This document shows positions 11,572-43,643 of a stretch of DNA of 64,000 nucleotides, one piece after another (positions within the stretch are counted from its first letter, which is position 1; every line of letters begins with the position of its first letter). Both the position numbers and the translations under genes were made by a program. The notes below the pieces were generated by a model, which was not told the DNA's origin, did no database searches, and worked only from the letters and a program-made list of their open reading frames with translations. Source of the DNA: Lepisosteus oculatus (lineage: Eukaryota; Chordata; Actinopteri; Semionotiformes; Lepisosteidae); contig NC_090716.1 in the NCBI RefSeq assembly GCF_040954835.1, positions 4,203,605 to 4,267,604 on the forward strand, given 5' to 3'.

Positions 11572-11763
11572 ATGGGCCAGGACCAAACCAAGCAGCAGAT
11601 CGAGAAGGGCCTTCACCTGTACCAGACCAACCAGACTGACAAAGCGCTGCAGGTGTGGCTGAAGGTTCTGGAGAAGACCTCTGACCCAGGAGGGAAGTTT
11701 AGGGTTCTGGGCTGTCTTATCACGGCCCACTCCGAGATGGGCAAATACAAAGAGATGCTGAAG
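11572..11763 (+). CDS. rapsn: rapsn coding exon 1
   Basis: Encodes residues 1-64, starting [13 protein letters not shown] and ending KEMLK before a GTAAGA donor. An in-frame ATG upstream at 11539 exists, but the MGQDQ start is chosen because Gly2 must be N-terminal for myristoylation and the family always begins this way. Confidence 0.96.
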
Positions 11764-20700: not shown

Positions 20701-23700
20701 TTATATTAAGTGCTATATTTAAAGGAGCTGTGCAAATTCTACAGGGCATTTCTAAAACTTGCGTATTTAACCACCCTAATTAAATGAAGCTCTTTTTGTG
20801 GACCGGGGATACAACGAGTATGCGCCAGTTGTCGGCTGCTGCAGAATCAGTACATTCCTGCTCTTTCTTGAATTTTACTGCCCTCTGGTGGCGATGAGGC
20901 TGAACTGGCTCAAACGAATCGTGTTCTCCACTCGCGTTCTGCGGAATAATCCGACAATCGGGTGGGATTTAATCACACAATCTTCAGACAGACACAAGGT
21001 TTAAAGATCAAAATGATCAAAAATATTTTGTTTTCCGACCCCCCCCCCTCCTCAAAACGACCTTCAGGCGTTTAAAAGTGAAAGCACAGCATTGTGATTA
21101 TTTTTAACAAGTTTCTTGCTCACAGGTCCTTTCTGATTATGCATGGAAAGAATCATGTCTTCACCACATAAACAAAAAAAACTTTCTTTTCGTTTTTCAA
21201 ATCATACACCACGTGCTTGTTTACTGCGGACAACGGTAACGTGTAGTTTACGTGAATAATTAACTATAAAAATACTGATTTCATATTAGAAATTTCTTGG
21301 ATTATTGATTTAGTTAAGTTTTAATTCTGTTTTGTTTTCGAAATTCATTGTTAATTCGTTTTTTTATGGTAGAGGACCAATGTCTAATAGAGGACAATGC
21401 AATTATCATTAACACCTTTCTGATCAAGCCTGGAGTCTGTAACAACTTACAGAAAAGAAATAAAAATCCCCAGATACTGATCGATTTTAAAAACTGCATT
21501 TGAACAACTCTGTCCTCTACCGCATCTCATATTCCAGACAACAATAAACCAGACCAAGCCCGTTTCCTGAAAATGATTTTTTAATCCTTTTGTGAATCCC
21601 GTGAGTCCTGTTTTTCCACCTACGGCCTCTGCATTGTCCGTGCACAGGCACCAGGAAATGTCGAGAGAGATTGATTCACACATGAGTGCAAAAGCGTGCC
21701 ACTCCGGAGCCTATGCTATGCCACAGAGGATCCTGAGAGGACTGTTAAGGCGGGGAGTTCAAAGTCAGGTCATCTCCACACACACGACCTCCACAGAACT
21801 GGGCTGAAATCTGTCAGGTCATTAACAGAGGGATTGTCAAGACAGTGAGTGTTCGGTCCTGTCCACACTGACTGATGATAATGATCATCTTTATTAGCCC
21901 TATACAATTTCTTGCATTAGGAATTCATCTTTTCACATACCCCAGCTTGCTCTGCATGAGACACAAACATACAGACAGGGAGAGAAGCTTGGGGTCAGAG
22001 CACAGGGTCAGCCATTGTACAGCACCCCCTGGAGCAGTTGGGGTTAAGGGCCTTGCTCAGGGGCCCAACAGAGTTGGATTCCTCTGCCGGCTGCAGGATT
22101 TGAACCGGCAACCTTCCAGTCACAGGCGCAGATCCTGAGGCACAGAGCCACTGCTCCGCACTGACTGATATACGGTGCGTGCCTAACGAGCTCATATAGA
22201 CACCTGATGTCGTTTGCCAAGGTCTTAAGACAGAGTAGAGAAAAGAAGGCAGAAGAAGAGGATTACCTTTCCACTTGTCCCAGGAAGGAGCGTTTCGGGC
22301 ACAAAACACCCAGTTTTAGGGTGGTGTGCTCCCAGTGTATCTTCACCTTGCAGTACAATGAGCACCGCTGACCATGTTTGAGCTCCCCAGCTCTCCTGCC
22401 CCGCCCGGGCTCAAACCTGGGGTCAGTGTCTGTGTCTCCGTGTCCTTTCCAGGAGTCGATGAAGATCGCCCTGCAGCACAGCGACCGCCCCCTGCAGGCC
22501 CTCTGCCTGCTGAACTTCGCCGACATTCACAGGAGCCGGAGCAATGTGGAGGTAGGCTCCTGCCCGGTGTCCGGGGCGCAGAGACAACGAGAGATTTCGA
22601 TGTGCAGGGCAGCGCTTGTGACCCAGTTTCCCACCCGTGGCGACGTGCCCTGTGACACCAGACCCTCGCTTTTTGAGGGGCCTAGGCCAGATCTTGGAAA
22701 GGGGCCCCTTCAGATCACAGTTTGCACATAGACTAGTGTGATCAGCTCCCACCACAAACATTCTTACTGTGCAGCATTCCTGTAGCAGCAGCTGAAACCA
22801 CACTGCTATAGTCATTTTACGGCAAAGAAATAAAGTACTGCACTTACATTCACAGCTCATAATACTGTATTATCATTTATAACTAGCAGATAGCCTAGAG
22901 TAGCACAAAAGCAACAGATGGAGCCACTGGAGGGATTTTTGGGGGGTTCACATTAGAAGGTGCCGATTAAAAAAACATGTTGTGTTGCACATTGTGGGGG
23001 CCCCCTGGTGGCCTAAGAAGCCAAGGTTTGGCCCTGCATCAGAGGCAGCTCTGGTCTCCTTCATAGAGGAGGAGGGAGCACCTACGATCTGGTGTCAGGC
23101 TGGGAGTCCTCAGACCTGGGGGGTTCTGGGATTGTGTCCTTGTTTTGCTCATGGCCACAGTGGCCTTTGACCTCCTGCCCACCTGTGTCTTGTGGTCTTC
23201 TGAAATCTAGCTCAGGCTGTGCCGAGTAATCCTCACAGCTTTACTTGTCAGGAACTCGTAAGGCAAAAGAAGCAGGAACCTTTAATCCCGGGTTTACGCT
23301 CTGATCCGTATTAGCGCCTCCCCGTCTGTTTCTCTCTTCAAGAAAGCATTCCCTCGTTACGAGTCCTCGATGTGCATCATGACAGAAATTGGCAATCGCC
23401 TGGGACAGGCGCACATCTATCTGGGCGTGGCAAAGTGCTGGCTTCTGCAGAAGGACCTGGACAAGGTACTGTATCAGTGGATCGTCTTCCTACTGTCAGC
23501 CTGCAGAATCTGCTGCTGTCGGCACCCAAGAGCCTGTAGCTAAAAACCTGTGGCTGGAATATTGGGGATTTGCATAAAATACAGTCCTGAATATAGACTG
23601 TCATATAATCCCACGCTTTCTGTAAAAGAAACGCTCCTTGCCTGAGCTGTCTTAACCTGACCTAGATGTAGTCAAGCACTGGCTGCCTTGCACCACACTG

Positions 23701-25714
23701 CTTGCAGAGCTGTCGTTCTGTATACCCAGTAAGGGTTTTACGGTGCTGCTTTGTTCTGGGCTGGATTGTATACGCAATGTGTGACCTAAATAGTCCACAG
23801 GCTGCTTTAGCTGCATCCTAAAACATGCTTCACCAGTCTTGGAACTATCCTTCTTTTTATTTTATTCTTCAGAGAGCACGCAGGGAAGCTGCATTAAAGG
23901 GGAACCGCCACCCTATTTTTATATTTCAGGGTCAGAAAGAATCAGCACTGATAAGTGCATTTCAAACCACAATTAAAGTAAAATCCACTCAGTACCTTGT
24001 AAAACTGCCAAATTATTACTGTACATAATAAAATAGATTAAATTTCCAGATATGCGTAGTGCCATGTTCCGTACTTATTCGCTCGTACATCACAGTACAT
24101 TGATCGTTACAGGGCCGAGAGAGCAGGAAGGGCTGCACCACGTCTTGGCTCTTGTGAACTCTCGCTCTCGCCCGTGTTGAGACCAGTGGTTTTGCGACTT
24201 ACAGCCTGTGTACAAAGTTCACGATTTAGTGCTGCATTCGAAATCTGTAAAAATGTTATATACCATCAATGAACGTATTTTGTGAGAGAGATTTAATAAC
24301 CGGTCTGAGAAATTGTCTGCAGTGCCCAACAGTTGTCACCCGGTCGCACTAGTGGTGCTGGGTCATGATGTACCGCCTCTGTTTTCTCCCCTCAGGCTCT
24401 TGATGCTCTTCAGAGGGCTCAGGAACTTTCAGAAGGAGTGGGGAACAAGGTACGGTGTTTTTACACGTGACCACTTCCTGCTGCTTCAACGTCAGTGATT
24501 TTTACTGTAATCCCGGAGGGGAAACGGCACCTTTAGTTGTACCGCAGTACCGTCAGAAAAGCCCGATGGTGGTATTGTTGGCTGCTTGCTTCTTGAATCT
24601 GTGTAAGCGCTGTAGCAGCAGGGCACTGTGACTTCGCAGGAAAACCACAGGGCAGGGAAAAGCATGATCCAAACTTTTGGCAAAAGACAGCAAAGCAAAT
24701 CTGCAGTATGAATCAGGGGTGGCTCTGATCCAGGACGTGGAGAGTCATGGTCCAGCAGGTCACACACAGTAGGCCCCCCGTGTAATTATCAGTTTGTAGG
24801 GAGTTGGAAGATGTGTTTTTTTTTTTATCAGTTTAGCTGGTAGGTTCAACGAGAGGAGGAGTGGCCAGCTGTGGACCTTGAATATTTAAATTGCCCAGGT
24901 TTATGGACCTGGATTATGTGGTCAAAACAGAGCGCTTCCAAGAGTTTAGCATCTGATGTCATGAAGGTGCCCCCTCAGCCCTGCTGGGCTGTGGCTGTGC
25001 AGGACCGTGCCTCTCCACCCCAGGTATAAAAACGCGGTGAGCCCACGGCACCCACTCGACGAATTAGATGATTAGGTGCGCGTAAGGGATTGTGCGCGCG
25101 TTAACATCGAGACCCAACGCCACGGGGAGCCCGGCTGCCGGCTCCCCCCTCCAGCAGGGGGCGCTGCGTGCGTGTTGCGGCGGAGGAGGTCTGGGGCTGC
25201 GCTGAGGCGTGCCGTCGCTGTTCCCCCAGCTCTGCGTCCTGAAGGTGCACTGCCTCAGCGAGAGGATATTCCGCTCCCGGGAGCAGCAGGAGCAGCTGCG
25301 GGAGCAGGTGGTGAAGTTCCTGGAGTGCGTGGAGGAGCTGGAGCTCTACTGCGGCATGTGTGGCGAGTCCATCGGGGAGAGGAACCAGCAGCTGCAGGCC
25401 CTGCCCTGCTCCCACGTCTTCCACTTGAAGTAGGTACCCCACCGCCTGGGCCGCGCCCCCCGGCGCCCACCACCTGCCGAGCCTCCTTACCCCACGCGCG
25501 ATCGTGGCGCGCTGGCCAGGGGACCCGAGCGAGGCCCCGAAAACCTGCCGAGATGTTGCACCAGTGAAGAATGAGTGTTTAACTCCTGTCTTGACCGGTT
25601 TATTGGCTTTGCTGCTGCAGTGCGTGTTTTCCGTCGCGCAGGTGTTTGCAGTCGAACGGGACGAAGGGCTGTCCGAGATGCCGGCGCTCCTCCGTGAAGC
25701 CCGGGTTCGTGTGA
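11572..25714 (+). CDS. rapsn: rapsyn (43-kDa acetylcholine receptor-associated protein), eight coding exons
   Basis: Rapsyn is the cytoplasmic scaffold that clusters nicotinic acetylcholine receptors at the neuromuscular junction. Joining the eight exons gives 1239 nt, or 412 residues plus stop, the same length as the human protein. The start MGQDQTK carries the N-myristoylation glycine that anchors rapsyn to the membrane. Residues about 6-320 hold helical TPR repeats, for example [17 protein letters not shown] in exon 2. A Glu/Gln/Leu-rich coiled coil follows at about 335-360. The RING-H2 ligands are C363, C366, C382, H384, H387, C390, C399 and C402. Asn88, the common human disease site, is conserved. 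All junctions are GT-AG and in phase, and no lesion is visible. A myogenic E-box lies just upstream. The 3' end is unclear. Confidence 0.97.
11764..14469 (+). other. rapsn: rapsn intron 1
   Basis: Runs from a GTAAGA donor to a TGTTGCAG acceptor. I see no gene, repeat family or RNA gene in it that I can support. Confidence 0.7.
14470..14808 (+). CDS. rapsn: rapsn coding exon 2
   Basis: 339 nt encoding residues 65-177, from [11 protein letters not shown] to FYVQLK. It holds TPR repeats and conserved Asn88 in [12 protein letters not shown]. It is markedly GC-rich compared with the flanking introns. The donor GTATGTG leads straight into a tandem repeat array. Confidence 0.96.
14809..15095 (+). 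repeat. 57-bp tandem repeat, about five units
   Basis: The string GTAAGGTACATACAG recurs at 14821, 14878, 14935, 14992 and 15049, an exact 57-bp spacing. Units differ by only a few substitutions. Diverged, shorter copies with GACCTATAAGGTATATA continue to about 15390. Because 57 is a multiple of three, the array makes long repetitive open frames that are not genes. Confidence 0.95.
15100..17638 (+). other. rapsn: rapsn intron 2, middle part
   Basis: Begins with the decayed continuation of the 57-bp array (to about 15390), then AT-rich unique sequence. I see no exon or RNA gene. Confidence 0.6.
17639..17850. repeat. Foldback repeat, possibly a Penelope-like element terminus
   Basis: The left arm (about 17639-17705) and right arm (about 17753-17818) are imperfect reverse complements sharing AACAAGTAATAGGTTTATTCC and AAGAAAGAAAACACAAC blocks. 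It is followed by CCTACGCATGCTGACGCAGC, which recurs with related sequence at 31010-31165. The minus strand of the left arm reads CCTGAAGAAGCC-UCCAC-GGCCGAAA. That recalls the CTGANGA/GAAA cores reported in Penelope-like elements, but the class is uncertain. Confidence 0.6.
17948..18106 (+). CDS. rapsn: rapsn coding exon 3
   Basis: 159 nt encoding residues 178-230, from [16 protein letters not shown] to AMECCE. CCCGCAG acceptor and GTAGGG donor, phase 0 at both ends. Confidence 0.96.
18301..18910 (+). repeat. Interspersed repeat interrupted by a younger SINE
   Basis: The left part (18301-18478) reads GTTAGTGGGCCAGTAGGGGG to CATTAAAAATTCCAGG. The right part resumes at about 18779 with TTTCTCCAAAAGAG and runs to GGCCTCCTAATAATCCCC. 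Both match the family seen at 10022-10345. The tRNA-type SINE at 18479-18778 splits it. Confidence 0.65.
18479..18778 (-). repeat. tRNA-derived SINE, copy 1
   Basis: On the minus strand it begins GGAGCAGTGGCTCTGTGGCT and contains GGTTGCTGGTTCAAATCCCG, which has the form of a pol III A box and B box. The 3' part is rich in GCTTCTCTCCCTG and ends near a GAAATTGTATATGGCCAATA tail. Copies 2 and 3 lie at 21880-22165 and 49566-49835. Confidence 0.8.
18911..21879 (+). other. rapsn: rapsn intron 3, remainder
   Basis: Mostly unique sequence, moderately GC-rich at 19440-20020 and AT-rich after 20500, with a short poly(C) run near 21041. No exon, RNA gene or known repeat was recognised. Confidence 0.5.
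21880..22165 (-). repeat. tRNA-derived SINE, copy 2
   Basis: Nearly the same as copy 1, including AGGCCCTTAACCCC-type and GGTTCAAATCC (B-box) blocks on the minus strand and the CAATTTCTTGCATTAGGAAT block on the plus strand. It lies in the same rapsn intron and in the same orientation as copy 1. Confidence 0.8.
22453..22551 (+). CDS. rapsn: rapsn coding exon 4
   Basis: 99 nt encoding residues 231-263, [13 protein letters not shown] through [15 protein letters not shown] acceptor and GTAGGC donor, phase 0. Confidence 0.95.
23343..23465 (+). CDS. rapsn: rapsn coding exon 5
   Basis: 123 nt encoding residues 264-304, [17 protein letters not shown] through [14 protein letters not shown] acceptor and GTACTG donor. 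It holds a late TPR repeat. Confidence 0.95.
24396..24449 (+). CDS. rapsn: rapsn coding exon 6
   Basis: A short 54-nt exon encoding residues 305-322, [25 protein letters not shown] acceptor and GTACGG donor, phase 0 at both ends. Confidence 0.94.
25230..25429 (+). CDS. rapsn: rapsn coding exon 7
   Basis: 200 nt encoding residues 323 to the first two bases of codon 389. It holds the Glu/Gln-rich coiled coil and the first half of the RING-H2 (C363, C366, C382, H384, H387). The donor is GTAGGT after CACTTGAA. Reading through instead gives an immediate stop, so the splice is needed. Confidence 0.95.
25642..25714 (+). CDS. rapsn: rapsn coding exon 8 (terminal)
   Basis: 73 nt after a CGCGCAG acceptor. 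It completes codon 389 and encodes [17 protein letters not shown] and VKPGFV before TGA. The three cysteines complete the RING-H2, and the end matches the conserved KPGFV rapsyn terminus, a type I PDZ-like tail. Confidence 0.95.
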
Positions 25715-28700: not shown

Positions 28701-29117
28701 TTTGCTATGAAAGAAACAAACTGATTATGTTGGCACTCTAAACAAGAAAAAAAAACACTAAATAAGAAGTGGATAAGTGATAATGACCAATGCGCGCAAG
28801 AGAGGGCTGGTGAAGTCACTCACAGTGATTAGGCATCGCTATTCAAAACCTGGGCGGTCATGTCCTTTGCGGTGCGCAATAATGTGCCTTTTAAAATGAA
28901 GTGCTTTTAGGCCACCGGAACTGTCAGGACGCACCTTATGCTAAATGCATATAAGATCAAACTCCTGCAGTCTTGGCATCTCTTGGCAATTCGAGATACT
29001 GAAGTGCGACATTCAGTAACGCGCACTGAACGTCATTTCAACGGTTTTTCTAAAGGCAGTCAGGAAGATGAGAATTTAAGGCGATGTCGCTGTTGAGATC
29101 AAGACGAACGCTTTGAA
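25715..29117. other. rapsn 3' flank and spacer
   Basis: Contains the rapsn 3' UTR, whose end is not clear. Tandem AATAAA signals at 27455-27464 are about 1.7 kb after the stop. The LINE-like tail at 28190-28400 sits here. No propeptide or signal exons for the astacin pseudogene were found. Confidence 0.5.
28190..28400 (+). repeat. LINE-like 3' tail, copy A
   Basis: Shares CTTTACTGAACTGGTTCCA, GTACCATC, GTCTCCTCTG and TATCTTGTGTATT blocks in the same order with 44925-45136. Its open frame resembles the out-of-frame tail of fish non-LTR retrotransposons. The family is not named. Confidence 0.6.
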
Positions 29118-29199
29118 ATGTCCAGACAGTTTGTGCCGATCTGGCCTAAAGACAGTAGTGGAACGGTCTCGGTCCCGTATCTTATCTCCAGTGAATACA
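29118..29199 (+). pseudogene. Astacin remnant: N-terminus of the protease domain
   Basis: Translates to WPKDSSGTVSVPYLISSEY and ends at a GTGAGTGA donor. The WPK-DG-V-VPY-ISSE-S pattern is typical of fish and frog hatching astacins. The cysteine usually found just before WPK is absent. A possible acceptor TGTCCAG ends at 29125. Confidence 0.75.
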
Positions 29200-30295
29200 G
29201 TGAGTGAAATACCAGTCATTACACTTTTCCCAAGATTTGGACACGAGTTAGTTTCCGGTTCAATAGCAGTGCAGCTGAATTGAAATCCATTTAAAACCCC
29301 GGTCTAGGCAGACAGTCTCCAGAAGCGCCACTTGAAACCATTTATATTATATTACGGGCCAACGAGTTTTGTAGAAGCAGCGTATACTGTATTTTATTTT
29401 TAAAATACACCGTGAAGTCATCCAAACTGTTGATCGGGCATCATGTTGAAACGTGCCCTTAACCAGAAAAGGCAGGGATGACGGAGAGAGACACACACGT
29501 GCACACAAATCACCCGGAGCAGTAGAAATACCGATCGGCAGCGTGCGTATTCACCGCGCAACCTCCGGCGACATGAAGTGAAGTTTGTGGAAAAGACGAA
29601 GGAGGCTGACTACTGGGCGAGTTCTTCACAATATTTTAAAATGCCAGCTATTAAAATATAGGGGCCTCCCAAGACAAGGTAGATGGGACCACCAGGTTCT
29701 GCAAAGGATGGGGGTTGTGGGGTGTGTAAGGACTTTGTCACTGGATACCAGTCATAGGAAATTTAATATCTCGAATTCTTTTCGCATGATCTTTGCCGAG
29801 GTATTTCAGAAATGCCGTCGCTCAGGGTCTCCGCTGATTTTGTTTTGTTTTTTTTTTTTTTAAATACAAGAACTATCGCGTGTGTGGACGTGTTGAGCTT
29901 TGCACTCGTTCTTGTTTAAGAATACGCGTGAGCGTCATCTTGTTTAAAGTTGTGTTCACATTAGGTACAAATAGTAATATTTCATTATGCATAAACCCCA
30001 GTGGAAAACACGACCGTGCGCGTTCTGCACCGCTGCATATGGTCACAAACATTCAACCCCCAGTTCCAGTTCAGCTCTCGGTAGCGTCTATCTTTGCACG
30101 AAGTCACGGGTTGTACGAACAGTCAGATGACCATCGCTATCTCGTAATGACAAGATAAGAGATATTTTTTTTGCTTGATGCAAGCAATATGCGGCAGCGC
30201 ATTGCTGCCATCAAGGTGTAAAACAATACCTGATTTAACTCGTGATTGAGTAATTTCCTGAGGGTTTTAGTGTCGGATCTGTACTTTGCCTTTAG

Positions 30296-30448
30296 GTGCT
30301 GGTTTCACCTGGGGCCGGCAGGTGGCGACGCTGAGCAGAAGCGGCCGCGTGATGCTCGAGGTGAACCGCGCCCTGGGTGTCCAGTACGGGCAGTGCCGCA
30401 GCGGTCGAGACCAGTACATCAAGATCCACTGGGAGTGCGTTGACCCAG
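30296..30448 (+). pseudogene. Astacin remnant: zinc-site exon, ligands lost
   Basis: Reads GAGFTWGRQVATLSRSG, then the damaged zinc motif at 30355-30387, then QCRSGRDQYIKIHWECV. All three zinc histidines are replaced; only the glutamate position looks kept. The exon fits best if it ends at CCCAG with a GC donor (GCAAGG), which joins in phase to the next remnant. Confidence 0.85.
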
Positions 30449-30876
30449 GCAAGGGCGCTGTGTTGGCCAGGCGGCGCCGAGGCTGACACGCGTGTAAAAG
30501 AACACGTAACGAGACGGCCCTTGGGGAGGGGGGGAGAACCCCTGGATGTAGATGAACTTCAGGGCAATGCGACAGTCGCTGCGTCCGCGAGTTTGCAAAG
30601 TAGCCGTTTCCAAGAAAGCCGGTGTGTTCATGCGGCGCCTTTTTTTATTTTGTAAACCTCCCACAAGGCCCGGGTTCGGCCTGAATCAGACAGCCGAGTT
30701 GATTTAATGTAAGCCCCAGTGCCTATTCCGGTACGGCTTGATTAAAGCTTTGGAAGCTCGATGGCTGCTTTTAGCGGGGGAACCTTTGTTGAGTGTCGCT
30801 CCAGACGGAGAAGTAATGCAGAGAAGGAAGGTGCTGATGGGGGGGGCACTCTCGGTGTTCTGCCTTCTCTTTTCAG

Positions 30877-30995
30877 GAAGTTCGTACAATGTCGAGAAAC
30901 AAGACACCGGTCATCTAGACATCCCCTGTGCCTACTTCCCCATCATGGATTACGGAAGATAAACAAGTGGAGGCTCAGCCGATGTGGGCATGCTG
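30877..30995 (+). pseudogene. Astacin remnant: Met-turn exon with premature stop
   Basis: After a TTTTCAG acceptor it reads SSYNVEKQDTGHLDIPC and PIMDYGR, matching the N-KQDT-N-PYDY-SVMHYGR stretch of astacins. The histidine of MHYGR is Asp here. TAA at 30960-30962 ends the frame, but the line TSGGSADVGML up to a GTAAGA donor still looks like astacin. Confidence 0.8.
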
Positions 30996-31009
30996 GTAAG
31001 ATCAGATAT

Positions 31010-31165
31010 TCAAGAACAAGTAAAGGTGTATTCCACGCTAGAAGGAAAAGAAAAGAGACTACATTTCAGCTGTGGAGCCTTCTTCAGGTGTGACACCTGA
31101 CACCCCATGTAGCTGCGTTAGCATGCATGTAGCCTATGCATGCTGACGCAGCTCCCTACTTGAAC
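31010..31165. repeat. Second copy of the 17.6-kb foldback family
   Basis: Shares GGAGCCTTCTTCAGGTGTG-type, CACGCTAGAAGGAAAAGAAA and CATGCTGACGCAGCTCCC blocks with 17639-17850. It lies between the astacin and CUB remnants and probably inserted after the gene decayed. Confidence 0.55.
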
Positions 31166-31971
31166 TTATTTCACCTAGATAAAATATCAGTCCATTATCC
31201 CGGGAAGGATGACCTTTCTAAACTCCTGACATACAGCAAACATAGAGGTTCTTTGGATGTGCATTCATATGAAAGCAGTTTTCCCATTCAAATTTCTTTT
31301 GCTTACCAGATGCCCCATCTCAGCTGCATAATTAATGAAAGGGTGAGGCCTGTGGCGTGTATGTCTCCCAACAGGTGTGCCTTCTCAAACACCTATGGGA
31401 GTGCAACAGTTGAGCCCCTAAAGGACACTAAAGAAATAACAGGATGACAGAGATGTGGCCTGAGCCCTATTGATGCGCTCAGAGTAAAAAGGCTACACTC
31501 TAAGGAGAGCCCTTTAGAAATTCTGGCTGTCAGTGCAGGGAATGAAAAGAAGTGCACTAACTAGTCAGGTCAGTCCTGAATATCATAAATGGTGTTTTTC
31601 CATTGCTGCTGTCTGTAATTGTGTAATTTGGCTGGCGAAAGAAGGCAAGACCCACAAAAATAACTTGTAAAAAAATGGTTAATGTGCCTCACATCTATTT
31701 GTCAGGATGAATGAGCACTTGGCAAATTCAGGAGAGATATAATTATCTGATAAGTATTATCTGATCATATTTTTGCACCACATAAATAACAAAGGCTCAC
31801 AACCCTTTCCTGTAAAAAAACAATGTTTTGGTAACACAGAAGGCATAATGGGCAAACAGCCACATCAATAACACTGTCAGGTGCTTGTGTCTTTGGCTAC
31901 AGGGTGTTAGGATGAGTGTGTGTTACGTTTGGAGTAGTTGTATATTGACATTTTAACCTGTTCGTCTCCAG

Positions 31972-32085
31972 ATGTCTGCAGCGCATTATTCACAGAAGCA
32001 GAGGGAGTCCTGACGTCTGCAACTGTCCCATCACAACATCCAGATAATTCCAGCTGTGTTCCCGATCCGCCTCCCATTGCAAAAG
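31972..32085 (+). pseudogene. CUB domain 1 remnant, first half
   Basis: After a GTCTCCAG acceptor it reads DVCSALFTEAEGVLTSATVP and HPDNSSCV. That matches the CUB opening C-G-L-G-SP-YP-YP-N-C, with the usual aromatic residues lost. A GTGACT donor follows. Confidence 0.7.
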
Positions 32086-32316
32086 GTGACTCTTCCGTTA
32101 TAAAAGTGAATAATCAAGGGCCAGAACAGTGCATGCTGGGTATTACAAGAGCTATTCTTGTCTTTTAACTTTCTCTAGATTTCTCCAGTTCTGAGATTAA
32201 AATTTTTAGCCAGCCTAACTGTAATTGTTTAGGCATCTGCTAATCTATGCTTGGATGCCAAAGATGTAAAATCTTGTAAAGCTCATGGAAGTTTCTTCCC
32301 TCATGATGTTTTGCAG

Positions 32317-32529
32317 ATTTTACTTGAATTTGAAGTGTTTAATCTGCAGATGTCTGAAGGCTGTGCCTGGTTTATAACGGTGACAGCAAAGACTCTCCAG
32401 TGTTACGGGAAAAGACCTGTGAGAAAAGACAGATTCCTCCCCTGTTTTCCAATAATGCTACCATGCTAATAGAGTTTGTCAGTGATGGGTTGCTCTCAGC
32501 ATCTGGATTTAGGGCAAAGTACAAAACTG
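32317..32529 (+). pseudogene. CUB domain 1 remnant, second half, frameshifted
   Basis: Reads ILLEFEVFNLQMSEGCAW, then loses the expected DYVxVYDG part to a small deletion. It resumes in another frame as GDSKDSPVLREKTCEK and LIEFVSDGLLSASGFRAKY before a GTAAGTC donor. The two pieces are typical of the CUB second half. Confidence 0.8.
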
Positions 32530-33273
32530 GTAAGTCAGCAAGGGGTGAGATCTGAGCTGAAAGATACAGTAGTGTAGCTTCTCCGCTGTTGGGTTCTGGG
32601 TTCATTTATAGTCTGGAAAACCTTCTGTGTGAAGCTTGCATGTTCCACCTGGACTTTCACCAGGTGTTCCAGTTTCCACTAGTCAAAGCCATGCTGCACT
32701 TCTCAATTGCCCTGTGTGCTTGTATGCAATAATGCACTAATCCCATCTGGGACATAGTCCTGCCTTGTGTTTAGACCTCCAGGGTTGGTTTCAGGTTGAC
32801 CTATATTACCCAGAATATAGTCGTTTTCTCAGTATGTATGGATGAATTCTGAGCTGGAATGGCAAATAAATGTGATTCTCCTTTCCTTTCTACATGGTGT
32901 GATTTCAGAACTGGGCTAGTCTTGTGAGAGGATTTGACAGTTGGGCTTCTAAGTAAAACCATAATGGCATTAAAAAAATGTCTCCCTGAACTCAGGAAGT
33001 GAATTTGGTTATTTATCGTATCCATACACGTGTACAGTGGAACACGTGCCCTGTGGACTTGAGCCATGAAACTTAACACACTTAAAATTTGGATATTGAA
33101 CTTGCGGTAGGTGTGTTGTTGATTCTGTACACAAGAGACTGGGCAGCTTCACTCTATTTTAACTCCAGGTAGGAAAGTTCCATGCTCCCACTGCTTTGTT
33201 TGGATAGGTAGAAGAATCTTGTAACTGCTCTGTATGCACATGAAAAGCAGATTGTGTTTTTTTTGTTTTACAG

Positions 33274-33414
33274 TGGACTGTGGTGTGACTCTGACAGCAT
33301 CAAAGGGAGAATTCTCATCTCTGAACTTCCCCTTTCTATCCCAATAATTACGACTGTACATGGGCCCTCATAAGCTCCACCTGGGTACAAGGACAGGATA
33401 TTCTGGATATTTGA
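33274..33414 (+). pseudogene. CUB domain 2 remnant, frameshifted
   Basis: After a TTTTACAG acceptor it reads VDCGVTLTASKGEFSSLNFP, then shifts frame near 33340 and continues YPNNYDCTWALISSTW and GQDILDI before TGA. The phase at the start matches the previous exon's end, which supports the exon chain. Confidence 0.8.
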
Positions 33415-34691
33415 TCATCCTCTTACACTGCCAGCGACAGTAGGATTCCTGGTATTTTTTTTTAAATACAGTATTAGGTATTTGTTTTTTTTCCAACAAA
33501 ACTTTTGTCTATGTTCCCTTGTTTCAGGTTTGAGCTGTTTTTTTTTTAAATGCCTTGTTTGCAACAGTAATTTTAAAAAGCAGACTGAATAACACTTGTA
33601 TTTTTTTAACTGTCTTTTCCCAGAAGTTATCTTGTGATCCTGCCAAGTCTGTGTGCTGAATATACTTATTCCTGGCAAAAACAAGATTCAGTGCAAATCA
33701 TCAGAATAAGTTAGGGACCCCCCTTTACTTATCAGCAAGTGCCACTATGAATAATTATAAATAGCGATTATAAAAACGTCAAAAAACTGCATGCTTAGCT
33801 CTGCGACAACTGAGCTTTGTGGTGTAGAGAGGTAAGCAGATACACAATGCCAAACTGGCTATCAGCCTGTATTGGTATTAAACAATCAATTTGCTGAAAG
33901 GAAGAGGAATACATTACTAAAAAATGCAAAGGTTTTAGATGTCACCAACAGCAACGGAAAGAGAGCTTTGTGTTTCTCAGAAAGTTTATTCAATTCTGTA
34001 CTGAAGGCTTACAAACAGACATGCTGGCTTGGTACTGCTGCAGACATCTTGGCAGTCTGACTCCTGCTGCAAAGGGCGTTACCCTTCCTCTCGGTATACA
34101 GATAAACATGCACATCTTACACACAGTTCTCCTAAGCCACTTAGACACTACAGGATCACAAACAGCCGTTCCAGAACTATTCATATAACTCGGATATAAA
34201 CACTTAGCAATTTTATCTACAGTGTAAAGCAGAGGCTCATTTTAGATAAAGAGATGCACTGAAGAGAGCGAGGAAAAAAAAACACTTTTCTATAAAACAG
34301 TCTTCATGTGGCACAGGAACTTCCACAGAGCAACCACAAGGTTGCCCAAGGAGGGAAATCAATGAGCAGATCAGCACCGCACACTTCTTCAAAACATGCT
34401 CATGTCCTATTTACACAATTCCAATACATCTCATTTAGTGAAAATACTCCCAATTTGTCTCCAACTGGCAATTAATACAAGGTTTGTCTGACAAAGTAAC
34501 TCACTATAATTAGGACTGCAGTGTGCTAGAAATGGTATAAACTCACAGAAGCAGGCAGGTACAGTACCCAGCTAACCCAAACACTGCCTTGCAGAAATCG
34601 CCCTATAAGCTGCAGAAGTGCTTGCCAATACATTTCTCTCCCTCCAGTGACTGACACGGCCAGCGCTCCGGGAGTCTTGCGGGAGTGCTCC
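33415..34691. other. Spacer between the pseudogene and cd59 copy B
   Basis: The pseudogene's likely 3' end and the cd59 copy B 3' UTR share this stretch. On the minus strand, AATAAA (plus TTTATT 33985-33990) lies about 700 nt past the cd59 stop and is a candidate poly(A) signal. Confidence 0.45.
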
Positions 34692-34894
34692 TCAGGCGTC
34701 CAGCACACACCACCAGAAGACCACCAGGGAGGCCAGCAGAGGGAGGAGGAGGGGCCTGGTGCTGGCAGGGCTGCTGTTGCACAGGTCTGAATTGCAGCAC
34801 TTGAAAGTGAAACTCTTTATGGTGGGGAACTGCACGCTGAGCTTTTGAAAGTCACAGGATGTGTAGTCGAAGCATTCCTGAATCGTTTTACCTC
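34692..34894 (-). CDS. cd59: cd59 copy B, coding exon 3
   Basis: 203 nt including TGA at 34692-34694. Encodes GGKTIQECFDYTSCDFQKL, the CCNSDLCNSS end of the Ly6 fold, and the GPI signal. The acceptor is ATTAAG, giving a Gly at the junction where copy A has Ala. Confidence 0.88.
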
Positions 34895-37688
34895 CTTAAT
34901 AAAACAAGCCAAAAAAGAATTAAAGTAAGTGCCACATTGCAGGTGATGAACAGCCAAATGAAGGTTCCTACAGTTTGTAATTGTAATATGTATGGGATTA
35001 AACACAACAGTATATACTATACTTTCATGCACTCTGTGCTTACTGCCTATAGCGTTATGGACTGAAATGACTAATACACAAACTTCACAGACCCACGAAA
35101 GGCAGGTTTCTCAGCCCATGTGCACCATAATGCAGCAGTAGCTGGGGCTCTAGTTTCAAAGCCCCAGTGCTGTTGTAGCCTTGAGCAGGGCACTACACTA
35201 CCTTAGTCCAGCTTTATATATGGGTACAAATGTCACTAGGGATAAAAGAAACTTTTCCAATCACACTAACCAGTATATTTTAAGGAAAAAAAACATTTTG
35301 TGGAAAAATAACACTTGTAAATAAGTAAAATCAGACCTGTCTCAGTTAGTTTCAGGCATGTATTCTTCGTGCCACAGTCCTCTACAGTGGAGCAGTTTGG
35401 CGAAATTCCTGTGCATTTATAGCACTTGAGGGCAAAGCCTGGGGGGAAAAAAAAATGCTATAATGCCATAAAGAACAAAACTCTCAACTCCAAAATCTGC
35501 ACGGCATTTCAAGGAGTATCTAATGGTACTTTTGCAAAGTAAACTCTTTACTGTACTTGACTTCTGAGGTTAAAGCCAAAACACTGAAGGACATCACCTA
35601 CTCCTCAGCAGTATTTAGCCCCTTGGGGAAACAAAACATACAATATAGGGCCCATTTACAGTATATTGTTACAGTAAGGAAATGGAACTCTGTTACACTA
35701 TACACGGCAATAGCTGAATGCATTAATACCTAGATCCAAAGGTCTTTTGCTTTGTACATACAAGTCAGCATTATCACACAGAATGCAAACAAGAGTCATA
35801 GTCACACATTTTAAAAGGGAGCTGGCCGATACTCTGGGTCACACTAGACCAGGGGAGCCTGACACCAAAAGTACCTTTAAAACCCCCAGCTTCTCAAGAA
35901 CAAGGAGAGGCTTCAGGTTGTCCAACTGAGCCACCGATGAGTCCACTTAGGTAGTGAAAGTACATCCTGGGGCATCCTGACCCTCCAGGACTGGACCCCT
36001 GACTAAGAGCGAAGGACCAGGACAGGGTAGGTCTCCCAGGATATCATGGGCTGCCACTCGCAAAGAGTGCTTCAGCTGGGACGCTGCATTCGTCAGATAC
36101 ATACAGGCCAGGCGTGACTAACCGCAATTCCCACCCAGCCAAACCCTCCATCTTCATGGCTGTTTGAAAGGGAGCCAGACAGCTCAGAGATGACCCATGA
36201 TGCAAATACCAAGGGCTGCAAGCGTCACAGACCAGAGCTGATCGATCCCGATTTAACTGCACCCATTACCTTACTAATGGATCTCTGACGCCCTGCCAGA
36301 CTGTGGTTATCCAGGGCCATGGTCAGTCTTCTCGCGCAGACTGAATGCTGTTTCTATTAAGTAGGTCTGATTTGGTTCTATACAATGAGAACGAATTGCC
36401 TTCTCGCATTGCGATTCCAGGGAAGACAACCTACAGTCTGTGGAAACACCTTGGGACCATGGACACTCATGAAATATTTGGTGGATGTAGCAAAATCCCT
36501 GGTTTCATGTTCATCCTGTAATATGTACGAGAATGACCCCATGAACATTTTTTTTGGGGGGACATGCTACAAGATGTGGTTCTCAGCTTTAACATTCATT
36601 GCAAACCTACACATTCGGGCTAGCAGCACAGAAAACCTGGACGCTAAACTGGTTTCTTTTCAGTCTTCTTTACAGTTGAGGCAGATTTGCACAAGAAAGG
36701 GCGGGTCACTACAAAACTATGCAGGTTTCCCCAGTCCTCAACACTTCCTGCTTTATTACGGCACTGAACCATCAATTCACTTGATTGGAATATCTGCAAG
36801 GTTTTCCTTGTTAAGATGAGGGTGCATTTCATCATACTTATAAAGATCAACAGTGGGAAGGCAACCTTGAACAAAGTTCAAGAGCTCTAAACTGCTGCAC
36901 ATTGGTGGTGGTGGAGGTGGAGGGGACTCCCCATTAACTGTAAAGCGCTTTGAGTGGAGTGTCCAGAAAAGCGCTATATAAGTGTAAGCAATGATTATTA
37001 TTAAACAAATCAAGGCATTTAAAATTCATAATTCATTGCATTAAGAGTCGATTCATGGCGTCACACCAATGAAGGGTTGCATTGTGTAACAGATGGGAGT
37101 GGAGAGAAAAAAAAAGACTAGCAGGGCTAGAACGACCAGCATCTGCTGACATTCAACAAAGGTTTAGCACTTAGGCCACCTGCTTGCTTCCAGTCCCTGA
37201 GCAATTTGAAACCATGCCGGTTCTCAAAGTGACGCGCTTTCTGGACACTGTCCGACACAGCAGCAGCCCTCCCGATATGGAGGCGGTGGCCGTCATCCCA
37301 CATCTAACTGTTGGCTCCAGCGCCTCGCACTGTGGCGATGCTTACTGGAGACGGGTTTGTGCGGCGACAGGGAGTTTCGCACGTCTACGGGATTTCTTCT
37401 TAGTGGTAAACCGTCGCATCACTACGGAAAACTCCACAGCAGCACAGTTATTCACAGTGGAGACTTTGTTTTGTATCGGCTCCACGCCCTGACAGGCCCT
37501 GGCTGGAGTCCATGTTTCGAGCGTATTTATCAAGGGTCAAAACGGACGCCCGGATTCGGGCAGTTTCAGATCTGCACCGAACAAAACCCGACTTGATCAT
37601 CGCGGGTGACAAAAATAAGGCTCAGGTACCGACCAATACTGAAGACTGCGGAGCAGAGGACCAGCGAAAACACCAGCGTGTTCTTCAT
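34692..37688 (-). CDS. cd59: CD59-like GPI-anchored Ly6 protein, copy B
   Basis: CD59 is a GPI-anchored cell-surface inhibitor of the complement membrane attack complex. Three coding exons (55, 102 and 203 nt) give 119 residues. The signal peptide is MKNTLVFSLVLCSAVFSIG. The mature Ly6/uPAR domain starts ALKCYKCTG and ends CCNSDLCNSS, with ten cysteines. A hydrophobic tail, LLLPLLASLVVFWWCVL, fits a GPI-attachment signal. All splice phases agree with copy A, 9 kb upstream in transcription. A TATA box and a CRE lie about 0.7 kb upstream. Assignment to CD59 rather than another Ly6 protein rests on the cysteine spacing and on fbxo3 next door. Confidence 0.88.
35125..35245 (+). repeat. SINE fragment in cd59 copy B intron 2
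   Basis: Contains AGTTTCAAAGCCCCAGTGC, like a decayed B box, then CCTTGAGCAGGGCACTACAC and TTAGTCCAGCTTTATATATG, like the common fish tRNA-SINE body. It is probably a relative of the 49566 element. Confidence 0.45.
35337..35438 (-). CDS. cd59: cd59 copy B, coding exon 2
   Basis: 102 nt encoding FALKCYKCTGISPNCSTVED and CGTKNTCLKLTET, the first half of the Ly6 fold with five cysteines. CCCCCAG acceptor and GTCTGA donor. NCS is a possible N-glycosylation site. Confidence 0.9.
36898..37005 (+). repeat. Interspersed repeat, 3' end fragment
   Basis: Carries the AAGCGCTTTGAGTGGAGTG and GCGCTATATAAGTGTAAGC blocks of the 10022-10345 family, in the opposite orientation, followed by ATTATTATTA. It lies in cd59 copy B intron 1. 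Confidence 0.7.
37634..37688 (-). CDS. cd59: cd59 copy B, coding exon 1 (signal peptide)
   Basis: 55 nt encoding MKNTLVFSLVLCSAVFSIG up to a GTCGGT donor. A CTAG acceptor just upstream (exon start about 37710) shows that the ATG lies in an internal exon, as in human CD59. Confidence 0.85.
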
Positions 37689-38351
37689 TCTTCCTTCGAT
37701 CGCTCACTTCCTAGGTAAAAGAGAAGAAGCACGTGGTTTTAACCGTTATTTCTTGCTCATTTGGCGTTAGCAGAGAGGGGAAAAAAAAGAGTGCGTATCA
37801 ACAAGCCTTCCTTAAAGCTGTAGCTTCAGGCCACTGGCGGCAGTGACCGCTGGGCAGGCGAATTAGTTCAGTTGTCGCTTAACGGAAAACCGAGTAAAAT
37901 CCTTACGTTTCCGTTTAACAGGGAATAAAGAGGTACAACTCGATCTGCAAAAAGCGATAACGAAAACACTCATGAACGAAGCCTTTCGAGCGGATACTCG
38001 CGCAGCCTGTGCAGAGGCTACCGTAACGGCGTGCATGGGAGGAAAAAAGAGATTTAAACGTGGACGGTAATAACAGCATTGCACTGCGACACAGCGCAAA
38101 AACCCGATTATAGTTCAGAGATTCAAGAACACGACATGTAAACCGGGTCACTTAAAAGCTGACCGAGCCCTCCAGTTTTTAGCACTGCCACAAATAGCAC
38201 AGACTCCCAGCTCCCCGTTTGTACTCTCGGCTGCGCCGAAAGGTGGGAGCTTTATCACCAAGATAGACGCAATGTGACAAATACTTCATCTGCCCTTTTT
38301 TTTTTAAAAAAAAAAAATAATAATCTAGATTTGGCATACACCACTACTCAC

Positions 38352-38424
38352 CTCCGCCTTCTCGACCCTTGGACAGGCTTCACGGTTTTATACAGCTCCC
38401 GTGTGATAGACCGCGCTGACGTCA
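38352..38424 (-). promoter_or_regulatory. cd59: Candidate core promoter and first donor of cd59 copy B
   Basis: On the minus strand a CRE (TGACGTCA, 38417-38424) is followed 25 bp downstream by TATAAAA (38386-38392). A strong donor GGAG-GTGAGT then ends an exon at 38352. A CCAAT motif lies further up, near 38676. TATA spacing would put the start near 38361, leaving a first exon of only about 10 nt, so either the true start lies further up or the TATA box is not used. Confidence 0.5.
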
Positions 38425-38914
38425 CCAGCTCCCCTCCCTCAGCCCTTGTCGTCTCACGGCCAGGGGGAGACGAGCGCCCACGATGACTCACCGCGAGCCC
38501 AGCCCTCACAAAACAGTTCTCAGCCGGCACGCGTGGGATTACTCACGAATGACCGGACTCTTTCGGGAGATAGCGTGGAACTAGAAGCCGGAGGGGGCTG
38601 CGTGACGTGGGTGTTGGTTCCCCACTCCCCCCTCTCGGCTTACCTGTTGGTATGTTCTCCCATGCCTGCTCGCCATTGGTCCAGGGGCGCGGCCGGGGAG
38701 GTTTAATAAAATATCTTAGTGACAAGATTGAAATGATATAACGCCACAAGGTTTTTTTTTCGGGAAAAATGGCCATTCGGTACCAAAACAAGTCCAAATC
38801 GTTTTTAAAATCCAGATTTGGCAAAGTATTTTTATCCTTTGCGAAAGTGTTTGCAAACGTACTTGAACCTGTCCGAAAGGAGAGTATAGCATGTTTTGAT
38901 CTCCCTCAATATAT

Positions 38915-39479
38915 ACTGATGGATAAAAGAAACGCAATACCTCCTCCTCCACACTCTGGCCCTCCCGTCTGCGTGGAACAAGCTGAAGGGTAACTCATCC
39001 ATGAGGAAGACCTGATGCCACTGCTGAGGAGTCCATCGCAGCCTCTGTCTGGCCCAAGTCCATCAGGGTGTGACGTCTAGGAGGTGTGAGCAGAGGGCCT
39101 CTGACAGGTTGCCTTGCTCTAAGGCCAGCAGCATGGAGCCTCACTGTCCTGTCACTGATGCGGGCATTGCGTCTGCTGGCAGTTTCAGCAGCAGTATGGG
39201 TGGCAGATCTGAAACGATCTCTCAGATTGACCAGTCTGAAGTGTCGGTCCTGCTCTGGTGTGGTCACTTGAGGGCGGCCGGATCTTGGACGGTCATCTGT
39301 CCTGCCAGTCTGCTGAAGCCTTCTCTGCAGCTTACTCCATAGTGTCCTTACAGCTTGCTCCAAGCTGTATTGCTGTTCAGAGGGCGTAAAACAAATTGAC
39401 AACTTTTTGTGAAATTACATAAGCTATAACTATAGTATTCTCATTCCAGAAAATGTTGCGTTTCTTTTTTCCATCAGTG
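38915..39479 (-). mobile_element. Internally deleted Tc1-like transposon with both inverted repeats
   Basis: Terminal repeats ACTGATGGAWAAAAGAAACGC at 38915 onward and up to 39479 match in inverted orientation, flanked by TA at 38913-38914 and 39480-39481. On the minus strand 38995-39402 is open and encodes QTGRTDDRPRSGRPQVTTP and AGLRARQP, the DNA-binding half of a Tc1 transposase. The catalytic DDE half is gone, so the element cannot move by itself. Confidence 0.85.
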
Positions 39480-39498
39480 TAATTGCATTTGATTCATG

Positions 39499-39840
39499 TC
39501 AGTGGGTGTTTCTTAGTAATGAGCTTTGCTTCAAATTTAATAATTTCCAAAGGTTTGGTTTAAAAAGCCTGCACACAAACCATCTGTTTATTGCATGTTT
39601 CTTAATGACTGCTTGCATTCCATGAGATACGAGTGTGAGCAGCATTTCACCAGGTGTTTCATGTTGAAAACGTTCTCCTCTCTCTAGTGAGTTAACGAGA
39701 CAGCAGCAGTTCTTGACAGCAAAAAGAAAAGTGCTCTTGGAAATAATCACAGGACTCCTGGGCACATCTTGTTGACTGTTTGCAGAGAGCTTCCCAATTA
39801 TAACAAAGACACAAGCAAGCCAAAACAGAAAAGTCCACAT
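39499..39840 (-). CDS. Possible small secreted protein, unknown family
   Basis: A 113-codon minus-strand frame starts MWTFLFWLACVFVIIGKLSA, which looks like a signal peptide with a cleavage site near ANS. The rest has a CCC cluster and about 90 polar residues ending SLLRNTH. On the same strand TATAAAT lies at 39921-39927, about 87 nt before the ATG, a plausible core-promoter distance. The Tc1 element begins about 20 nt after the stop. No family was recognised, no poly(A) signal is seen, and a frame of this length can arise by chance. A GTG start upstream at 39873 would lengthen it. Confidence 0.25.
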   Translation of the reverse strand: MWTFLFWLACVFVIIGKLSANSQQDVPRSPVIISKSTFLFAVKNCCCLVNSLERGERFQHETPGEMLLTLVSHGMQAVIKKHAINRWFVCRLFKPNLWKLLNLKQSSLLRNTH

Positions 39841-39920
39841 GATTCTAACTGACCTTGACACAAATGTAGGCACAGTCTAGCTGCTTGACCAGAGCCTGCG
39901 CCACACTGTCAGAGGTGCAG

Positions 39921-39927
39921 ATTTATA
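39921..39927 (-). promoter_or_regulatory. TATA box upstream of the small secreted ORF
   Basis: TATAAAT on the minus strand, 87 nt before the candidate ATG at 39840. It may be fortuitous in AT-rich DNA. Confidence 0.25.
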
Positions 39928-40353
39928 TGAGCACTGACGAGAAGAAGGCTGCCTGAGACTGGCACTTAAGTCTGTTTCAGCATGCTCCTGTATTCCCCAT
40001 GCAGCATTAACCCACAGGCAAGTCAGATCATTGTGTTCTTCCAGAGAATCTCCTTCTGCAGCGACTGCAGGGTTGGGACAGATCTAACCTGTCGTTCTGG
40101 GGCGCGCTTAGCTTGAGACTTGGGTTTCATGGGGAAATGAGTTGAGGTTTCTGGTCTTGTGGCCACAGGGAACTAGCTGCCTGTTGTAATTTTTTGGGCT
40201 AAACACATTGTGCCGAAACTTTGGGCATTTTCCAAAACATGCAAAATTGCATACCAAGTCTGTTACAGTAGCAAAGGCTCAAATGTGCTGATTTGCACTT
40301 CAGTGCAACCCTTTGCCCTGATATTTTGTAAGAATCAGAAATTGTTATTCTTA

Positions 40354-40460
40354 AGTCAGAGGGCTTAAAACAAATTGACACCTTTTTGTGAAAGTACACA
40401 AGCTATAACTATAGTATTCTCATTCCAGAAAATGTTGTGTTTCTTTTTTCCGTTAGTATA
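40354..40460. mobile_element. Solo end of the same Tc1 family
   Basis: About 100 bp matches the right end of the 38915-39479 element, including AAGCTATAACTATAGTATTC and GTGTTTCTTTTTTCCGTTAG. No matching left end was seen, so it is a truncated copy about 1 kb from the first. Confidence 0.7.
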
Positions 40461-43440: not shown

Positions 43441-43643
43441 TTAGAGAACACACCACCAGAACACCACCAGAGAAGCCAGCAGGCCGAGGAGGGGCTTGCT
43501 GACAGCTGCCGCAGTGCTGCTGTTGCACAGGTTGCTGCTGCAGCATCTGTATGAAAATCCCGTCGATACCTGGGGGAACATCTGGCCGAGTCTGGCATTG
43601 TCACAATCTGTATATCTGATGCACTGCCGGATAGTTTTTCCAG
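43441..43643 (-). CDS. cd59: cd59 copy A, coding exon 3
   Basis: 203 nt including TAA at 43441-43443. Encodes AGKTIRQCIRYTDCDNARL, FSYRCCSSNLCNSS and the hydrophobic GPI signal. The acceptor is CTTCAAG. Confidence 0.92.

Follow-up and report, generated by a model that had tools for sequence, protein, structure and literature searches.

A decayed astacin-CUB-CUB protease gene, probably of hatching-enzyme type, between rapsn and cd59 in Lepisosteus oculatus

What is preserved between rapsn and cd59 in Lepisosteus oculatus, and from what kind of gene did it come? The window analyzed here (the whole stretch of DNA, 64,000 nucleotides) was originally predicted to hold, in this interval, six short pieces of a ruined metalloprotease with one astacin and two CUB domains. 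All six pieces are present in that place, on one strand and in order, and alignments, matches to PDB chain 3vtg (high choriolytic enzyme 1), and Pfam CUB bear out the reading as a ruined astacin-CUB-CUB protease. The set was incomplete, as a protease exon at about 31375–31499 had been overlooked. The forward strand carries seven collinear exon remnants, four from the protease, two from CUB1, and one from CUB2; an eighth (29578–29613) is weak. Several extents also required revision: the first piece takes in the NALKCPDSLC cysteines (29080–29136) across a frameshift, the second CUB1 exon begins at 32317, and CUB2 extends as far as about 33415 through two further frames. The features are as follows, with scores from frameshift-tolerant alignment.

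11572..25711, forward strand: rapsn, upstream neighbor; sequence matches, seven stretches without a stop
29080..29199, forward strand: exon A, corresponding to exon 4 in the published nine-exon plan; prodomain end and NALKCPDSLC cysteine pair, followed in a different frame by IWPKDSSGTVSVPYLISSEYS; score 120 against 32 for the top of 60 shuffles; in-frame TAA immediately upstream of 29080; GTGAGT donor retained
29578..29613, forward strand: exon B, a possible scrap of exon 5, VKFVEKTKEADY; weak, score 38 against 36 for the top of 60 shuffles
30296..30448, forward strand: exon C (exon 6), the zinc-site exon; score 99 against 37 in shuffles; about five codons short; acceptor retained, GC at the donor position
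30877..30958, forward strand: exon D (exon 7), the Met-turn exon, SSYNVEKQDTGHLDIPCAYFPIMDYGR; score 78 against 29 in shuffles; acceptor retained, donor lost
about 31375..31499, forward strand: exon E (exon 8), CAFSNTYG ... QRCGLSPIDALRVKRLH; one in-frame TGA; score 61 against 31 in shuffles; AG acceptor retained, donor lost
31972..32085, forward strand: exon F, the opening exon of CUB1, with a single frameshift; both splice sites retained; score 71 against 33 in shuffles
32317..32529, forward strand: exon G, which continues CUB1 as its second exon; a single frameshift, length reduced by about four codons; both splice sites retained; score 90 against 38
33274..33415, forward strand: exon H, the opening exon of CUB2, with two frameshifts; acceptor retained, end unclear; score 152 against 42, the query having been modeled in part on the window itself
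35359..43746, reverse strand: cd59-like gene, downstream neighbor; two Pfam CD59 matches (35359–35439, E 0.0068; 43441–43746, E 6.8e-6), both under the cut-off

The remnant of an astacin-CUB-CUB protease gene between rapsn and cd59 is real, and chance is a very unlikely explanation. Seven of the eight exons scored far above 60 shuffles per stretch, and exon B barely exceeded them; the ast2 query also missed exon B, and 59 of 200 shuffles attained the score of that query there. Chain 3vtg gave collinear matches to exons A, C, D, and E at 30.0, 42.7, 33.5, and 26.2 bits, and when the dinucleotides of the whole window were shuffled 200 times the best match was 28.5 bits. Exon E alone would therefore not pass this control; in a separate shuffle control, 1 of 200 shuffles did as well as this exon. 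Profile searches placed Pfam CUB on exon G over the cut-off (E 1.9e-5), with Pfam Astacin on exon C (E 0.0019) and Pfam CUB on exon F (E 0.12) under it, and gave no match for three of the six pieces submitted. The second half of CUB2 was not matched by CUB queries reaching 36 kb in the window.

Damage is spread throughout. Breaks are present in every one of the seven exons found. Alignment places five frameshifts, with a sixth probable, and the damage also includes two in-frame stops and two lost donors. The HExxHxxGxxHE zinc motif is absent: in exon C, the first zinc histidine is missing and the second and third are R and Y. A frame change is probable near the start of this exon, where the opening seems to read CWFHLGPAGG in another frame. 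Because all three zinc histidines are gone, the remnant is a ruin and not an enzyme, and the locus, judging by its sequence, is no longer able to yield a working protease. The zinc motif and both CUBs had been called broken from the outset, and they are, but the TAA after MDYGR falls at the position that the intron donor, lost here, takes in intact relatives, and is not coding. Among the cysteines, the N-terminal pair and the Trp-flanked Cys of exon C persist; another cysteine of exon C is lost, as is the C-terminal one, and exon B is unreadable. An origin as a retrocopy is ruled out, since introns and splice sites persist. Assembly error is an unlikely source of so many separate breaks while seven rapsn stretches stay open. 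It is highly improbable that part of the remnant still functions, for example as a transcript or a CUB-only protein: exons F and G retain their splice signals, exon H retains its acceptor, and 57 codons of exon G are open, but all three CUB exons carry frameshifts.

As the best explanation, the remnant probably represents a gene, now dead but still with introns, that encoded a secreted six-cysteine astacin protease with two CUBs, the domain plan of non-teleost hatching enzymes. Homologous exons occur in the right order and on one strand, with splice sites as in intact relatives and with inactivating breaks. Hatching-enzyme genes have nine exons, with the protease in exons 4–8 (PMC2939575, in its available text). 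Exons A, C, D, and E keep that layout with conserved intron phases, and their ends agree with those of intact astacins of the same genome; exon B is weak in this respect. According to the available text of PMC8812170, CUB domains occur in the hatching enzymes of non-teleost bony vertebrates but are absent from those of teleosts, and among bony-fish C6astacins CUBs are reported for hatching enzymes only. The CUB-bearing enzymes described there resemble the remnant in having a six-cysteine astacin followed by CUBs, in exon plan, and in a locus comparable to the one implied for reedfish; they differ in that the remnant is dead, with zinc histidines gone, frameshifts, stops, and lost donors. Teleost hatching enzymes (HCE1, PDB 3vtg; 3lqb) are the closest intact sequences compared but lack CUBs. 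The CUB-less C6astacins (npsn, pastn, pac, C6ast4/5) have no C-terminal domain, unlike the remnant with its CUB exons. Hatching-enzyme pseudogenes of ovoviviparous teleosts (PMC6385490, available text) are likewise decayed, but descend from the CUB-less kind.

Comparisons of sequence gave a mixed picture within the astacins. Identity was highest to hatching enzymes (70/154 and 67/154 columns) and lowest for BMP1/tolloid (23/83); it was 63/163 columns with L009, an intact C6astacin on the same chromosome (C21:4.065 Mb, ~167 kb upstream). L009 shares the exon ends of the remnant but has an intact zinc motif and no CUB in the flanks examined. Descent from a BMP1/tolloid gene, which likewise has an astacin domain and then CUBs, was rejected on identity and on the tree, where the two are separate; the remnant also has an extra N-terminal cysteine pair, and the probability left to this origin is negligible. 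In the tree, the remnant joins teleost hatching enzymes with support of 81/85 (74/80 without short fragments), which is moderate and below the tool's own star, and its branch is very long. Ten columns separate two teleost hatching enzymes from four C6astacins of this genome; the remnant sides with the hatching enzymes at two, with the genome's own C6astacins at five, and with neither at three. Each own gene was also compared at the sites where it departs from both hatching enzymes: the remnant agrees with that gene at 5, 5, 3, and 6 sites and with one or other hatching enzyme at 27, 29, 20, and 28. Such a tally favors the side represented by two sequences.

The residue count does not favor the predicted hatching-enzyme identity, and it would fit a remnant of an old CUB-bearing C6astacin paralog, like those of cartilaginous fish, rather than of a hatching enzyme itself. 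CUB-bearing C6astacins of sharks are described in the available text of PMC8812170, which reports no such paralog for bony fish, and the tree and overall identity lean toward hatching enzymes; we consider a paralog unlikely. The hatching-enzyme type is the best fit for the remnant, as suggested by the N-terminal cysteine pair, the CUBs, and the exon plan, with moderate support from the tree and none from the residue count. On that reading, the product of the living gene would have cut egg-coat protein at hatching. The gene may then have fallen out of use in this lineage, perhaps since a CUB-less six-cysteine astacin took over, and the disused copy would have decayed in place.

An intact counterpart was sought in the rest of the assembly. 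Among the best candidates scored, Astacin and CUB profile searches, inspection of flanks, and a search with the CUB1 exon revealed no intact CUB-bearing six-cysteine astacin at any other place. The Astacin profile gave at least 21 other exon matches, and among the matches listed no CUB lies beside those of C6 type in the flanks examined. Further astacin pairs occur on contigs C12 and C19. The CUB profile search, in which the best 150 of 285 candidates were scored, recovered the CUBs beside three tolloid-type astacins. With the CUB1 exon as query, the remnant itself was returned and the next match had an E value of 0.079, among the matches listed; the best CUB exon of the remnant has no close relative in the assembly among the best candidates scored. 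The remnant could instead be a spare copy, if the species has an intact CUB-bearing hatching enzyme that the searches overlooked or that was left unassembled. The limit of 150 candidates leaves room for this, and the 813 contigs suggest gaps in the assembly, but the absence of CUBs beside C6-type matches, the isolation of the CUB1 exon, and the ability of the same profile to detect tolloid-type CUBs make a surviving copy quite improbable.

That no intact CUB-bearing kind appeared among the best candidates prompts the question of which enzyme serves this fish at hatching. One possible answer, which we regard as doubtful, is that the lineage has lost all its CUB-bearing hatching enzymes and relies on a CUB-less six-cysteine astacin instead; the switch would then predate teleosts or have occurred at least twice, with evidence kept in the rapsn-cd59 interval. 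The further suggestion that this locus could date the loss of CUB-bearing hatching enzymes in fish is unsupported as stated, non-teleost ray-finned CUB-bearing ones being already published (PMC8812170, available text). A remnant in a fixed gene neighborhood nevertheless offers a way to time the change from CUB-bearing to CUB-less enzymes, and it gives an address at which to look for orthologs in bowfin, gars, sturgeon, bichir, and basal teleosts. A literature search, covering text outside supplements, figures, and most subscription journals, found no published description of the rapsn-cd59 remnant.

The remnant lies within an ndufs3-ptpmt1-celf1-rapsn block, the position implied for the reedfish hatching enzyme by the available text of PMC8812170. 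Query fragments of tra2b, tgfb2, kcnk, psmc3, spi1, cd82, and others had no match in the loci examined. In lobe-finned vertebrates the hatching-enzyme locus is syt13-tp53i11-cd82 (PMC8812170, available text), which is a different place: tp53i11 is 7.2 Mb from the remnant.

A multi-exon, decayed gene encoding an astacin protease and two CUB domains lies on the forward strand between rapsn and cd59 (window 29080-33415). Exons A-E belong to the protease, F and G to CUB1, and H to the start of CUB2. The original prediction, of six astacin and CUB pieces, was right in its main lines, and 6/6 pieces were present there; it missed exon E. The assembly comprises 1.2 Gb in 813 contigs, with the window on contig C21 (17.4 Mb).

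Neighbouring features in the window
11572-25711, forward strand: rapsn, sequence matches
35359-35439, reverse strand: CD59, Pfam match under the cut-off
43441-43746, reverse strand: CD59, Pfam match under the cut-off
near 56 kb, reverse strand: fbxo3-like gene

Two cd59-like regions (34702-34786 and 43445-43532) share ~90 bases at 80% identity, a likeness that suggests tandem duplication of cd59. By eye, open frames at 14793-15176 and 60584-60961 consist of repeated, minisatellite-like peptide units.

The exon ends of the decayed gene agree with those of intact astacins in the same genome. Exon A retains the donor at its end. Exon C has a kept acceptor and GC, a form of donor able to work, at the donor position. 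Exon D keeps its acceptor and has lost its donor; the TAA noticed earlier is present, at this lost donor. Exon E has a kept acceptor, an internal TGA, and a lost donor. Acceptor and donor are kept in both CUB1 exons, F and G, and the acceptor is kept in H, with which CUB2 begins. In published hatching-enzyme genes, which comprise nine exons, the protease runs from mid exon 4 to exon 8 (PMC2939575), a stretch to which A-E correspond. CUB exons follow the protease as they do in non-teleost bony-fish hatching enzymes, according to excerpts of a second study (PMC8812170).

Seven consensus exon queries were compared with the window and 200 dinucleotide shuffles. Five of the seven scored above every shuffle; the queries for exon E (ast5) and exon B (ast2) were equalled by 1/200 and 59/200. 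Because some queries had been written after reading the window, the test was redone with two CUB-less teleost hatching-enzyme chains from the PDB (3vtg, high choriolytic enzyme 1, and 3lqb) and two intact gar genes (L019 and L009). The 3vtg chain matched four exons in their proper order: A (30.0 bits), C (42.7), D (33.5), and E (26.2), with a top shuffle match of 28.5. Matches were also found with 3lqb (C 50.1, E 30.8, D 26.6; top shuffle 28.5), L019 (A 28.1, C 30.0, D 28.9; top shuffle 28.1), and L009 (A 31.6, C 32.0; top shuffle 27.3). Stray matches occurred at 61.4 kb (3vtg, E 0.044; 3lqb, E 0.13) and, for L009, at several other places (E 0.048 to 0.60). Frameshift-tolerant alignment, controlled with 60 shuffles per exon stretch, scored exons A-D at 120, 38, 99, and 78 (shuffle maxima 32, 36, 37, and 29) and exons E-H at 61, 71, 90, and 152 (maxima 31, 33, 38, and 42), the query behind the 152 of exon H being partly shaped by the window itself. 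Exon B is a doubtful exon remnant on these scores. The Pfam CUB profile recognized the second CUB1 exon (E 1.9e-5), in line with the proposed domains; Pfam matched the zinc exon (E 0.0019) and the first CUB1 exon (E 0.12) weakly, and three of the six submitted pieces had no Pfam match.

By alignment, A, F, and G each carry a single frameshift and H carries two, with breaks in both CUBs, as had been proposed. A sixth, in exon C, is probable from a weak L019 match in another frame. In-frame stops lie directly before the first recognised residue of exon A and in exon E, and donors are lost at D and E. The zinc motif was correctly called broken: no histidine is left, the first being missing, the second reading R, and the third Y. 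Faulty local assembly is unlikely to explain these breaks, since seven stretches of neighbouring rapsn, trimmed to its matches, contain no stops. Most likely the gene died in place, decaying where it stood. The intron that separates D from E contains a short dispersed repeat (31014-31100), which also occurs at five other loci (L002, L015, L018, L023, and L025) and a second time in the window, near 17.6 kb.

Identical columns were counted between the joined pieces and each astacin. Values were 70/154 (3vtg) and 67/154 (3lqb) for hatching enzymes; 68/163 (C12, L019), 63/163 (C21, L009), 59/163 (C12, L018), and 59/162 (C19, L011) for gar six-cysteine astacins (C6astacins); 34/107 for a meprin-like gene; and 23/83 for each of two tolloid-type genes. 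The tree grouped the decayed gene with both hatching enzymes plus a pair of broken C14 exons (81/85), and with the hatching enzymes when the C14 exons and a second C19 copy were left out (74/80), although neither value was starred by the tool and the branch is very long. Both trees lean, with moderate support, away from a CUB-bearing paralogue that was not a hatching enzyme. That alternative is nevertheless live, as at ten separating columns the gene sides with a gar C6astacin in five, with hatching enzymes in two, and with neither in three. Given this conflict, what assigns the gene to the hatching enzymes is its exon plan together with its CUBs rather than sequence alone.

Gene order on C21 is a C6astacin (4.065 Mb), ndufs3 (4.132), ptpmt1 (~4.149), celf1 (~4.19), rapsn (4.215-4.229), the decayed gene (4.233-4.237), cd59, and fbxo3. 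Excerpts of PMC8812170 place a single C6astacin between the c1qtnf4-ndufs3-ptpmt1 and mtch2 sets in gar, sturgeon, coelacanth, and arowana; for reedfish they report that the hatching enzyme was the sole C6astacin found there, which implies that it sits at this place. In lobe-finned vertebrates the hatching enzyme lies near syt13, prdm11, tp53i11, tspan18, and cd82. From these flanking sets, ndufs3 and ptpmt1 were placed on C21; mtch2 and c1qtnf4 were not located. The tp53i11 gene lies at 11.46 Mb on C21, 7.2 Mb from the decayed gene, and none of the 21 Astacin-profile matches outside the window falls there. The address is therefore the one that the reedfish account would suggest, not the lobe-finned one.

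Those 21 exon matches came from a genome search with 47 scored candidates.

Astacin-profile matches outside the window
C1, C2, C4: tolloid-type astacins (type by our reading)
C2, C6: meprin-like astacins (type by our reading)
C21, C12 (two), C19: C6-type astacins
C2:65.3 Mb: astacin match
C19:2441210-2441350: broken second C19 six-cysteine astacin copy (L013)
C14:117809-118009 and C14:425972-426178: broken astacin zinc exons (L022, L021)

Among the best 150 of 285 CUB-profile candidates, CUBs lay beside all three tolloid-type astacins and beside no C6-type astacin. CUB queries on L001-L032, whose flanks contain no intact CUB as positive control, gave no match at E 0.5 or better outside the window. 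The second CUB1 exon, used as a genome query, recovered its own locus, and every other match had E 0.079 or worse. Within the limits of these searches, the decayed gene appears to be the only CUB-bearing C6astacin left in the assembly. New are this gene, its address, and the result that the genome searches turned up no intact CUB-bearing C6astacin besides it. A bold but testable reading is that the lineage may hatch with a CUB-less astacin.

In the tree, the two broken C14 exons fall with the teleost hatching enzymes; they are further ruins of that type, and the 10 kb examined around each yielded no additional exon. They sit in duplicated blocks whose main pieces are 84.5-91% identical. The broken C19 copy has three TGA codons in its match and lies ~29 kb from the intact L011. 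Beside the C12 astacin pair, L023 and L024 have frames that, by eye, resemble retrotransposon polymerase fragments.
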